From Pseudomonadales bacterium (GTDB lineage Bacteria; Pseudomonadota; Gammaproteobacteria; Pseudomonadales; Pseudohongiellaceae): 32,275 nt of DNA. A program made the translations under genes and the position numbers. The stretch lies in contig JAJDSZ010000029.1 in the NCBI GenBank assembly GCA_022827425.1, positions 1-32,275 of the forward strand, given 5' to 3'. Shown here piece after piece: positions 28,907 through 32,275 of the stretch (position 1 is the first letter of the stretch; every line of letters begins with the position of its first letter). The notes beneath the pieces were generated by a model, which saw only the letters and a list, made by a program, of their open reading frames with translations, had not been told where the DNA came from and did not search any database.

Positions 28907-29139
28907 GACTTGCTCCCATGCTTTGCCGAAGGTGCTGGCAGTCATCTAAACATGACCGGAAAGCCCCGGCAACGATATTGCGACAAAGCGGCAATAGCCG
29001 GAACGAAGCCGTAAATGAGGCGATGGAAACCGGCCGCCAACCTGCGCCTGGAGACAGAATCCCCGAAGAGATTCTGCGACTACGCTTCGCTTCGCGCGGA
29101 ATGACATGAAGGTTGGAGCGCCGAAATGAGAATCACTGA
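28907..29139. other. Intergenic stretch with a dispersed repeat
   Basis: No coding sequence is seen here. It holds the upstream region of the DUF2141 gene, where I see only a weak promoter candidate (TTGCCG, 17 bp, TTAGAT on the minus strand), and family 2 repeat copy C. A second small inverted repeat, CAGAATC with GATTCTG (29055-29061 and 29070-29076), overlaps the start of copy C. Confidence 0.5.
29069..29105 (+). repeat. Dispersed palindromic repeat, family 2, copy C
   Basis: This 37-base copy runs from AGATTCTGCGACTACG to GCGGAATGAC and differs from copy B at a handful of sites. It lies about 35 bp before the promoter of the large repeat-protein gene. Confidence 0.82.
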
Positions 29140-29169
29140 TTGAAATTGCTTTTCGGGGTTTCTTATAAT
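29140..29169 (+). promoter_or_regulatory. Strong sigma70-type promoter
   Basis: TTGAAA (29140-29145), an 18-bp spacer and a perfect TATAAT (29164-29169) point towards the pentanucleotide tract and the large secreted protein. The predicted start of transcription is near 29176, about 38 bases before the ATG at 29214. This is the best promoter in the window. Confidence 0.72.
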
Positions 29170-29213
29170 GTCGCCACTTCTCCCGCCACCGGTACGCGAA
29201 TCGCGAAAATAGC

Positions 29214-29627
29214 ATGGAAATCGGTAAGAAGCACTTGACAGCGGATTTCCCCGGTAGTGGCACCATATTGTTAGCCGAGCCGAGCCGAGCCGAGCCGAGC
29301 CGAGCCGAGCCGAGCCGAGCCGAGCCGAGCCGAGCCGAGCCGAGCCGAGCCGAGCCGAGCCGTGAGCGCGCCCGAGTGGCATGGGGCTTTCAAATCCGGG
29401 GGCGCCCGCGGGCGCCCGCAACGCAGCCTGCCGCGTGCGCTGGGGCGGGCCCTGTCGTGCCTGCCGCTGCTGCTTGGCCTTGCCGCCGGGGCGCAGGCGC
29501 AGGGGACCGCGAGCCTGACGCTGGACCCGACCGAGATCGAGTATCACTCCCTGCACGGCGCCACGATCACGCTGATCCCGAAGAACGCGTCTTTCTTTGC
29601 GGCGGGGACCGGCGGAGGCTCGGATGA
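29214..29627 (+). other. Leader reading frame running through the pentanucleotide tract
   Basis: The first ATG after the promoter (MEIGKKHLTADFPGSGTILL) enters the repeat tract, where 15 bases encode AEPSR again and again. With 17 units the frame leaves the tract as arginine- and alanine-rich nonsense and stops at 29625-29627. The large gene lies in a frame one base different. Adding one 5-base unit, or removing two, would place this ATG in frame with it. No good Shine-Dalgarno is seen before the ATG. This may be the off state of a phase-variable gene, or an incidental open frame. Confidence 0.45.
29273..29362 (+). repeat. Pentanucleotide microsatellite, 17 perfect units
   Basis: The unit CGAGC is repeated 17 times without error from 29276 to 29360, flanked by partial units (AGC before, CG after). 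Since five is not a multiple of three, any gain or loss of a unit shifts the reading frame. Perfect tracts of this length are unstable by slipped-strand mispairing. The copy number in an assembly may be inexact. Confidence 0.95.
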
Positions 29628-32275
29628 TCCAAGTACACCTGCCGGAGTTGCCAGGCACGCCAGACTGCTATCCTATGTGGACAGCCGGGACCTGGTCGAG
29701 GACGGAGAAAAGATTCCGCCAACCGCGGTCCGGCTCAGCGCGGCCGGCCTTGCGAACATCACGCTGTCGGGGGCGCCCTCCGGCCTGACGATCGCCAGCG
29801 GCCGGCTGCTGGCGCGGTCGGCGGGCGACGACCATGGCTTTCCGGAAGGTACGCACCGGTCCGCGGAAATCACCCTGGCGTACAGCGGTTCGGCCGTCGC
29901 CGCGGACGATCCGGTGACCGTCACCGTCAACGGTGATGTCCTGTCGAGGCGGAATGCGCAACGCGAAAGAGGGAGCGGGCCCGGCAACCTGTCCGCCGAC
30001 TTCACGGTCGGGGGCCCGCCCCCCGCCGCCGTGACGCTCTCCCCGGACTCCCTCGCCCTGACCGAACTCGGCGCATCGAGTGCTGTTGAAAAAACCTACA
30101 CGGTGGTCCTGGACTCCGATCCGGTCGCGGACGTCACGGTCACGGTCACGAATGGCGACAGCACTGCCGCAGAGGTGGACACCGATACCGGCGCCGGCGC
30201 CGGCGCCGGCGGCAATCAGGATACCCTGACCTTCACGGCGGGCGGCACCGGTCTCGGCTCGGGCGCGGGCAACGGCAACTGGAGAGTACCCCAGGAGGTG
30301 ACGGTAAGGGCGCTGAACGATGCCGACGGCGCGGGCGAGTCCTTCAACCTTACGCATGCCGCGACCGCCGCGAGCGGCCCCTACAACGGCATCGTCATCG
30401 GCAGCGTCGCGGTGACGACCACCGACGCCGGCCACGGGGTCGTGGTGTCGGAGTCGGCACTGTCGGTGGCGGGGGATGACGAAACCGTGGAGTACACGGT
30501 GGTGCTGAAGAGCCGGCCCACGGGGAATGTGGTGATTTCGGCGACGTCGGACGACACGGCGAAGGCCACGGTCTCTCCCGCCACCCTGACCTTCGGCGTC
30601 TCGGACTGGAACGCCCCGAAGACGTTTACCGTCACCGGCAAGGGTGCGGGCTCGGCCAACGTCAGCCACGCGGTCCAGTCCTCCGCCGACACGACGAACT
30701 ACCCGACCTCGACGACGGTTTCCGGGGTGGCGGTGACGGTCACCGGCGCCAGGCCGGTGGTCTCGGTGGATGCGTTCGGTTTTGCTTTCAGTGAGGGTAC
30801 CCGCGACCTGTCTTTCGATGTCACGGCAATGCCGGCGCCCGCCGCGCCCCTCACCGTAAGACTGCGGGTGACCGCGACCGGCGCGGCGGCGTCTCCCGCG
30901 CCGGGCGGCGTGGGGGACGTGACGGTGACGGTGCCGACCGCGGGCAGTGCCAGGCACAACGTGAATATCTATGGGGATACAGTGGACGAGCCGGACGGCG
31001 AGGTGACGGTGGAGGTGCTCGCGGGTCCGGGCTACCGTGTGGCTACGGATCCGGACCACATCGATTCGCTCATTCTGTTCGACAATGACGCCGGAGTGAT
31101 GGTTTCCCCGACCTCCCTCACCCTGGAGGAACTCGGCGCCGCATCGGAGGTTGAAAAGACCTACACCATCGTCCTCGACACCGATCCGGGCGCGGATGTC
31201 ACGATCACGGCGACCAACGGCGACGCCACCGCGGTCGAGGTGGACACCGACAGCGGCATGTCCGGCAGCCAGTCCACGCTGACCTTCACGGCGGGCGGCG
31301 ACGGCTCCGGCTCGGGCACGGGCAACGGCGACTGGGCGGTGGCGCGGACGGTGACGGTGCGGGCGCTCAACGACGCCGACAGCGTGAGCGAATCCTTCAA
31401 CATCACGCACGGCGCGACCGCCGCGAGCGGCCCCTTCAACAACATCTCCATCGTTCCGGTGGCGGTGGCGACCGCCGACGCCGGCCACGGGGTCGTGGTG
31501 TCGAAATCGAGCCTGTCCGTGGCGGCGGGCGACGAAACCGCGACCTACACGGTGGTTCTCAAAAGCCAGCCTTCCGGCAACGTGGTGATTTCGGCGACCT
31601 CGGGCGCCACGGCCAACGCCGAGGTGGACACGGACGCGGACATGGCGGGCAACCAGAACACCCTGACCTTCGCCAATTCCGACTGGAACATGCCACAGAC
31701 GGTCACGGTCACCGGCAAGGGCCAGGGTTCGACATCCATCAGCCACGCGGTCTCGAGTTCCGCCGACACGACGAACTACCCGACCTCGTCAACGATTTCC
31801 GCGGTGTCGGTCACGGTCACCCCCGACACCCGCCCGACGGTGAATATCACGGGCGCGCCCTTCGAGGCCTGGGAGGGCGAGAGCGTGAGCGTCCCCGTAG
31901 CGCTCTCGGCCGCCCGCACCGTCGACACGACCGTCGAGCTGGAGCAGTCCGGCCTCGGCACGGCGACCGCCGGCGCGGACTTCACGGCCGGCCCCTGGAG
32001 CGTCACGATTCCGGCGGGCCAGACGACCGCGAGCGCGTCCATCGCGCTGACCCAGGACACGGCGCTGGAGATGGACGAGGCGTTCAACGTCCGCGTCAGG
32101 CAGTCCACCCTGCCGGCCGGCGTGGCCGCGGGAACGGGCGCGGCGCGGGTGACCATCCGGGACGACGAGTACAGCCTGTGCTTCGACCGCAATGCCTACG
32201 CGGTCAACGAGCACGCGGGCGAGGTGGACCTGCCCCTCAGCCTGTCGAGGGCGGTGCGGAACGACGTCACCGTGT
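29362..32275 (+). CDS. Large secreted Calx-beta-like repeat protein (partial, continues past the window)
   Basis: The frame is open for at least 971 codons from the GTG at 29362 to the window edge. A signal peptide is visible (SLPRALGRALSCLPLLLGLAAGAQAQ, about residues 22-47), giving a long basic N-region. After a unique region (about 48-220), two rounds of a three-domain set follow. Type A opens SPDSLALTELGA or SPTSLTLEELGA, type B opens GHGVVVS, and type C is a Calx-beta-like domain (VNITGAPFEAWEGESVSV with FTAGPWSVTIPAGQTTASASI). Such proteins are usually long surface or secreted adhesins; calcium binding is possible but not shown. The GTG is the only start codon in frame between the upstream stop (29272-29274) and the signal peptide, and it has no Shine-Dalgarno, so the true start may lie before the pentanucleotide tract in phase variants. 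Confidence 0.82.
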   Translation, partial: MSAPEWHGAFKSGGARGRPQRSLPRALGRALSCLPLLLGLAAGAQAQGTASLTLDPTEIEYHSLHGATITLIPKNASFFAAGTGGGSDDPSTPAGVARHARLLSYVDSRDLVEDGEKIPPTAVRLSAAGLANITLSGAPSGLTIASGRLLARSAGDDHGFPEGTHRSAEITLAYSGSAVAADDPVTVTVNGDVLSRRNAQRERGSGPGNLSADFTVGGPPPAAVTLSPDSLALTELGASSAVEKTYTVVLDSDPVADVTVTVTNGDSTAAEVDTDTGAGAGAGGNQDTLTFTAGGTGLGSGAGNGNWRVPQEVTVRALNDADGAGESFNLTHAATAASGPYNGIVIGSVAVTTTDAGHGVVVSESALSVAGDDETVEYTVVLKSRPTGNVVISATSDDTAKATVSPATLTFGVSDWNAPKTFTVTGKGAGSANVSHAVQSSADTTNYPTSTTVSGVAVTVTGARPVVSVDAFGFAFSEGTRDLSFDVTAMPAPAAPLTVRLRVTATGAAASPAPGGVGDVTVTVPTAGSARHNVNIYGDTVDEPDGEVTVEVLAGPGYRVATDPDHIDSLILFDNDAGVMVSPTSLTLEELGAASEVEKTYTIVLDTDPGADVTITATNGDATAVEVDTDSGMSGSQSTLTFTAGGDGSGSGTGNGDWAVARTVTVRALNDADSVSESFNITHGATAASGPFNNISIVPVAVATADAGHGVVVSKSSLSVAAGDETATYTVVLKSQPSGNVVISATSGATANAEVDTDADMAGNQNTLTFANSDWNMPQTVTVTGKGQGSTSISHAVSSSADTTNYPTSSTISAVSVTVTPDTRPTVNITGAPFEAWEGESVSVPVALSAARTVDTTVELEQSGLGTATAGADFTAGPWSVTIPAGQTTASASIALTQDTALEMDEAFNVRVRQSTLPAGVAAGTGAARVTIRDDEYSLCFDRNAYAVNEHAGEVDLPLSLSRAVRNDVTV
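30031..31853 (+). repeat. Tandem duplication of a domain set inside the repeat protein
   Basis: A segment of about 1,053-1,065 bp is repeated in tandem. Shared landmarks are the type A openings at 30031 and 31096, and GGCCACGGGGTCGTGGTGTCG-like type B openings at 30430 and 31483. Identity is high at the protein level in A and B and low in C. Inside the first A domain, GGCGCC is repeated three times (30190-30207), expanding a glycine-alanine loop. Confidence 0.8.

Follow-up and report, generated by a model that had tools for sequence, protein, structure and literature searches.

Upstream of the gene for a giant, predicted secreted protein, a draft genome of a Pseudomonadales bacterium carries 17 perfect copies of the pentamer CGAGC. 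Does this tract merely separate the promoter from the gene, or does its length decide whether the gene is expressed? The stretch of DNA analyzed here (32,275 nucleotides; the window) is contig C87 of the source genome, G000, a 2.86-Mb draft in 130 contigs. On the strength of the sequence comparisons described below, we consider it probable that the tract is a switch belonging to a multi-locus family of slipped-strand phase variation, a known kind of system with new variant features.

Organization of the window locus

Direct reading confirmed the elements listed by the first-pass annotation of this DNA: TTGAAA (29140-29145) and TATAAT (29164-29169) with an 18-base spacer, an ATG 38 bases past the expected transcript start, and 17 perfect CGAGC units. 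The hexamer pair is the sole promoter-like site within positions 28930 to 29600 (shuffles gave a mean of 0.1), and transcription would be expected to start near 29176, 38 bases 5' of the ATG at 29214. Tandem Repeats Finder reported two arrays in the window, one of them the CGAGC tract, for which it gave 29273-29362, 18.0 copies (partial units counted) and a 100% match. The features of the locus are as follows.

29140..29169, + strand: putative promoter TTGAAA-18-TATAAT (11 of 12 matches)
29214..29275, + strand: putative leader, an ATG and the codons before the tract, beginning MEIGKKHLTADFPGSGTILLA (direct reading; other loci have a similar leader)
29276..29360, + strand: tract of 17 perfect CGAGC units (direct reading), open in all three frames
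29214..29627, + strand: open reading frame from the leader ATG at 17 units, 137 codons, leaving the tract out of the protein frame
29362..29365, + strand: GTGA, in which the protein GTG (29362-29364) overlaps a TGA in the next frame (29363-29365) (direct reading)
29362..32275, + strand: start of the giant, predicted secreted protein; the GTG is the first start codon, and the frame is still open at the contig end
29362..29499, + strand: signal-peptide-like stretch and the region preceding it, ending …RALSCLPLLLGLAAGAQA (hydrophobic window plus A-x-A rule)
31879..32166, + strand: Calx-beta domain, residues 840-935 (E = 1.9e-9)

Because the unit has five bases, and not a multiple of three, the CGAGC tract encodes AEPSR whatever the frame and without a stop, so that its length sets only the frame in which it is left. 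The leader ATG and the protein GTG are 148 bases apart (29362-29214) and therefore lie in different frames; from the leader ATG, the first stop is met 264 bases beyond the tract. The 17 units of the assembly are thus the out-of-frame state. It had been calculated earlier that 15 or 18 units would join the two frames, and that fusion would add an AEPSR repeat to the protein; both statements are correct. That the GTG right after the tract lacks a ribosome-binding site was borne out as well (no Shine-Dalgarno match, duplex of -2.2 kcal/mol), but the leader ATG, on which the earlier note was silent in this respect, also has no Shine-Dalgarno match (+0.1 kcal/mol).

The protein behind the tract has at least 971 residues, its reading frame running off the contig, and its hydrophobic stretch ends in AQA, in keeping with the earlier description of a large protein with a signal peptide. 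Signal peptides here and at all other loci were called by an ad hoc rule, a hydrophobic window followed by A-x-A, and not by a dedicated predictor. Calx-beta alone was found by Pfam on the 971 residues. The tract proteins are presumably located at the surface. No AEPSR, RTEPN or REPGAGS repeat lies near the start of any of the 120 database relatives listed for the window protein (267 were found), which counts against a translated leader. Elsewhere in the source genome, an autotransporter beta-domain (PF03797, E = 3.8e-10) was seen at L010:10356-11504 on the minus strand, upstream of the broken tract gene G000:C60, indicating that autotransporters are present in this organism.

A family of leader loci with several repeat units

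A short leader followed by a tract 5' of a signal peptide was found at nine loci in the source genome and about 30 in five genomes of the same genus. In the source genome, the unit is CGAGC at C5, C40, C60, C87 and C101, CGAAC at C74 and C118, and CAAGC at C25 and C97; a four-unit search found four of the CGAGC tracts, the fifth (C40) having three units. At least six CGAGC units occurred in 7 of the 194 genomes searched, five of which (the source genome, G018, G022, G074 and G077) are among the 84 of this genus. CGAAC, at five or more units, was present in 5 of the 84 genus genomes. CAAGC, which came to light as the CGAAC pattern read backwards, occurs in the same five and also in 5 of 5 genomes searched directly. 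A GAGCCGG tract was found in 1 of 10 genomes searched, and a GGGCCGG tract at G030:C58. Three 5-mers and two 7-mers therefore occupy one position, and no unit length among these five, to which the search was confined, is divisible by three.

One kind of Shine-Dalgarno-led leader (GG..TTGACAATG) is common to CGAGC tracts and tracts of other units; the short leader pattern also matches tract-less places in 25 of 84 genomes, where the printed matches in other genomes look unrelated. The layout was seen at 42 leader loci, tabulated from five genomes and contig L108; a tract or its cut-off start is present at 40 of these, and three further contig ends in G074 have the same leader-tract arrangement. 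Contig L108, titled as alphaproteobacterial, was considered as a transfer between classes; this was rejected, its upstream 2.5 kb being 93.7% identical to G022:C37, and a mis-binned contig of this genus is the likelier explanation. L108 is counted here as one locus.

The first-pass annotation had named a constant unit number among relatives as evidence against a switch. Instead, tracts were found to have from 3 to at least 26 units, the upper value coming from G000:C118, whose contig ends within its tract. We regard an assembly artefact as an exceedingly improbable source of this picture: the genomes are drafts, and 10 of the 42 leader loci were unreadable, their contigs breaking off at the tract or shortly behind it, but the layout recurs in six genomes whose contig names (k141_, NODE_) point to different assemblers, and most readable loci have unique flanks on both sides.

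Reading frames behind the tract

We then looked at the frames in which the tracts can be left. Among 33 loci examined for a signal peptide, five fell below the threshold, three of them with fewer than 120 bases left; at 27 of the 28 with a recognizable signal peptide, the signal-peptide frame can be followed back to the tract without a stop (median, 50 codons), whereas the other two frames close after a median of 10 codons. The sole exception is G000:C60, where the signal peptide is unreachable at any unit number; at G018:C86, the tract is not followed by a signal peptide. The final bases of many tracts are CCRTGA, and hence one exit frame meets a TGA that overlaps the gene's own ATG or GTG.

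At the assembled unit numbers, the 30 readable tract loci comprise 13 fused, 6 in which the leader stop overlaps the gene start (an ATG at five, a TTG at one), 10 out of frame and 1 broken (G000:C60). Out of frame are the window, G000:C5, G018:C42, G018:C86, G018:C125, G077:C49, G077:C41, G077:C22, G077:C10 and L108; at G077:C22, as at G077:C73 and G030:C58, the contig stops short of a signal peptide, and the state was judged from the sole open frame. Two leader loci lack a tract, G077:C15 being fused and G030:C60 having a leader stop that overlaps the ATG. Of the nine source-genome loci, three are fused and one has the stop-start overlap; two are out of frame, one is broken and two could not be read. 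A fused share of 13 in 30 is indistinguishable from the one-third expected by chance, which fits free switching and, equally, no selection on the frame.

These counts bear on the notion that the only effect of the tract is to lengthen or shorten a linker in front of the signal peptide, out-of-frame copies being assembly slips or pseudogenes. The 13 in-frame loci and the openness of the tract in all frames would suit such a linker. The units, however, have 5 or 7 bases, units of 3 or 6 being absent from the set found, and the signal-peptide frames are still open even though a third of the readable loci (10 of 30) are out of frame. We therefore consider this explanation very unlikely.

Is the leader translated?

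Tract-less G077:C15 has a single open frame of 501 codons that begins at the leader ATG, spans the signal peptide and reaches the end of the locus, and at G030:C96, G000:C74, G022:C24 and G000:C25 leader, tract and signal peptide are in frame. The leaders fall into types that differ in the predicted duplex with the anti-Shine-Dalgarno sequence, the mean being -9.2 kcal/mol for type B (n = 27), -10.3 kcal/mol for type C (n = 3) and -4.0 kcal/mol for type A, the type of the window (12 loci, at one of which the ATG is misplaced). That one is G018:C125, where the misassigned leader ATG makes the Shine-Dalgarno value meaningless and the out-of-frame state rests on the reading frames. Starts just behind tracts gave a mean of -3.1 kcal/mol (20 sites). 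In a substitution test on hand-chosen, nonindependent leader pairs, differences were mostly synonymous in type C (8 of 13, P = 0.0005), borderline in type B (6 of 16, P = 0.07) and not significant in type A (10 of 33, P = 0.18). At G077:C49, the frame of the leader ATG is unlike that of its relatives, which speaks against translation of the type-A leader. A promoter-like pair scoring 9 to 11 of 12 precedes the leader ATG by 36 to 51 bases at 10 of 12 type-A loci, which are related to one another; simple base shuffles, the control, had a mean score of 6.5. Initiation at the leader ATG is thus well supported by sequence for the Shine-Dalgarno-led leaders; for the window's leader type, where promoter position and leader similarity speak in its favor, it appears plausible.

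Alternatively, the tract could be a neutral or length-tuning 5' untranslated region, with translation always beginning at the start codon just behind it. The lack of a Shine-Dalgarno match at the window's leader ATG is compatible with this, as are the many tracts that directly adjoin an ATG or GTG in the signal-peptide frame and the metagenome-assembled genomes (MAGs) of Ruminococcaceae that place a CGAGC tract in the untranslated region between promoter and gene. The post-tract starts nevertheless match the Shine-Dalgarno pairing poorly, no start codon closely follows the tract at G000:C101, G022:C24, G030:C96 and L108, and G022:C66 has ATA where other loci have ATG. Moreover, the tract-less relative is in frame and the signal-peptide frames are open back to the tract. 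Taken together, these points make an untranslated tract unlikely.

The switch proposed by the first-pass annotation is thus supported by the layout of the family, by differing unit numbers and by the tract-less in-frame relative. Support is stronger for the family than for the window locus, because the window's ATG is among the weakest-looking starts of the family. What had not been foreseen are the family itself, the other units, a possible third state and the apparent swapping of leaders and genes at this point.

We propose the following mechanism. Transcription would start about 38 bases 5' of the leader ATG, as the conserved promoter suggests, and ribosomes starting at this ATG, for which homology argues at the Shine-Dalgarno-led leaders and which we presume for the window's type, would translate the tract, open in every frame. 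The unit number would then determine the exit frame. In one frame, leader and repeat would be fused to the stretch ahead of the signal peptide; in a second, at genes with an RTGA start, the leader stop would overlap the start and re-initiation may follow; in the third, translation would continue out of frame, presumably silencing the gene. Gain or loss of units, probably by slipped-strand change, would shift a locus between these states, so that expression would be turned on or off by unit number.

A transcription start at the tract was also entertained, prompted by a TTGACA about 30 bases 5' of the tract in many leaders and by the promoter-like pair followed by a tract in Ruminococcaceae and Saccharibacillus. 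It was dropped for this clade because by inspection no -10 element lies at normal distance behind the TTGACA and because 10 of 12 type-A loci have the better promoter-like pair further upstream. In type-A leaders, including the window (29236-29275), an inverted repeat lies between the TTGACA and the tract; by eye, its arms seem to vary in step (GGGGATTTCCCC, GGGAATTCCC and CGGGGCGCTTGCCCCG), and it may be an operator or an RNA hairpin.

Unit-number differences and possible exchange at the tract

Flanks were compared among 35 loci, the genome pairs representing different species. Five between-species pairs have matching upstream flanks and unequal unit numbers. G018:C42 (12 units) and G022:C91 (17 units) match upstream (96.7% over 1525 bp) and, as the only pair with a close match on this side too, downstream (88.8% over 780 bp). 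G018:C86 (24 units) and G077:C27 (20 units) match at 93.4% over 1836 bp upstream, and G000:C118 (at least 26 units) and G030:C96 (5 units) at 93.8% over 1391 bp. For G000:C74 (16 units) and G077:C41 (14 units), identity is 82% over the 128 bp adjoining the tract and 93.2% over 532 bp further out; for G018:C56 (9 units) and G077:C59 (24 units), it is 88.6% over 193 bp upstream and 91.5% over 2105 bp further out. The window's upstream flank had no matching partner among the 35 loci, and the window's gene is 80.9% identical over 1911 bp to that of G018:C56, a locus that is fused at 9 units.

Homology between loci starts or stops at the tract, whichever side is compared: the upstream region is common to G018:C56 and G077:C59, whose genes are different, while G077:C49 and C59, as well as G018:C42 and C94, share the gene start and differ upstream. 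This pattern points to recombination by way of the tract. Three of the MAGs have contig names that suggest an assembly with k = 141, which is longer than the tracts (at most 120 bp), and this speaks against forced mis-joins, though they are possible.

One might go further and regard the tract mainly as a crossover point between promoter-leader modules and surface-protein genes, frame changes being a by-product. The three homology breaks just described are what this would produce. Draft assemblies may mis-join repeats, however, the comparison of G077:C49 and C59 covers 191 bases behind the tract, and the absence of units divisible by three is left unexplained; we hold this account to be highly improbable. 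More tentatively than the switch itself, and with less than even confidence, we suggest that the switch may be modular, with three states (fused, hand-over at the start, silent), and that crossover at the tracts may reshuffle around ten loci per genome. If true, an uncultured, probably sponge-associated lineage would have a combinatorial coat.

Comparison with known systems

In Neisseria opa, the tract encodes part of the signal peptide. Here, the unit and the protein family are different, the tract is in a putative leader that precedes the signal peptide, and several different units serve one kind of leader. The earlier analogy with opa holds for the pentamer tract early in a reading frame (here a predicted one), the several loci per genome, the predicted surface proteins and the differing counts, which for the opa (CTTCT)n tract range from 2 to 30, by strain and locus, in a table of PMC5320596. 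With its CGAGC unit and Calx-beta protein, the window locus would work like opa and is not a member of that family.

Tetranucleotide loci of Haemophilus influenzae are likewise present several times per genome. A 5' coding repeat shifts the frame there too (lic2A), but the units are tetramers in sugar-transfer genes, whereas here 5- and 7-mers precede giant secreted proteins. Neisseria NadA and Helicobacter SabA resemble our loci in having a surface protein under a repeat near the promoter, but those repeats act on transcription, and ours is proposed to lie inside a translated leader. The leader TGA that overlaps the gene start at 6 of the 30 readable loci recalls translational coupling by overlapping stop and start codons, as described in PMC12548453; here, unlike there, the overlap would be hit or missed according to unit number, and re-initiation would have to follow.

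Among the titles and abstract openings surveyed, no report of repeat-driven phase variation in sponge symbionts was found, and a term search of the main text of PMC9531527 returned neither "phase variation" nor "tandem repeat." Among the relatives of the window protein are records under the names Candidatus Synechococcus spongiarum 142 and Gammaproteobacteria bacterium AqS3. The MAG series of the tract-bearing relatives are probably sponge metagenomes, and judging by MAG names the named relatives of the clade are probably sponge symbionts. Phase variation through repeats is familiar mainly from pathogens with small genomes; here, giant secreted proteins are preceded by a set of putative switches whose repeat units are interchangeable. 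If the reading is right, the coat of an environmental or symbiotic bacterium would switch at random, which might, speculatively, serve against phages or host uptake. With many parallel loci and different units, tract growth, frame choice and gene shuffling could be tested from long reads alone.

CGAGC tracts outside the family

By inspection, such a leader is absent at tracts in G098, G160, G083 and eight viral contigs and at most of at least 114 further contig loci with tracts. Further CGAGC tracts were seen in MAGs bearing the titles Silicimonas, Gemmatimonadetes, Alphaproteobacteria, Boseongicola and Bryobacterales (L100, L136, L153, L184, L185 and L109), some from the same MAG series, and a long open reading frame with a signal peptide lies behind the L100 tract; mis-binning or convergence may account for them.

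In the Ruminococcaceae RUG MAGs (L087, L155, L160, L161, L114 and L148), 5 to 15 CGAGC units directly follow TTGACA-18-TAAAAT, with about 5 bases between the TAAAAT and the tract, in an untranslated region about 180 to 260 bases 5' of the start codons. The proteins have a signal-peptide-like start in common, and judging by its position the repeat is at the predicted transcription start, outside any reading frame. In Saccharibacillus, 16 of 17 printed tracts (L073, L078, L081, L094, L104, L106, L107, L113, L119, L130, L141, L146, L151, L162, L169 and L183) lie behind a repeated element, ATCCGTTA...ATCCGTTAGC, with small variations and with varied sequence downstream, an arrangement that resembles a dispersed repeat with a variable tract at its end.
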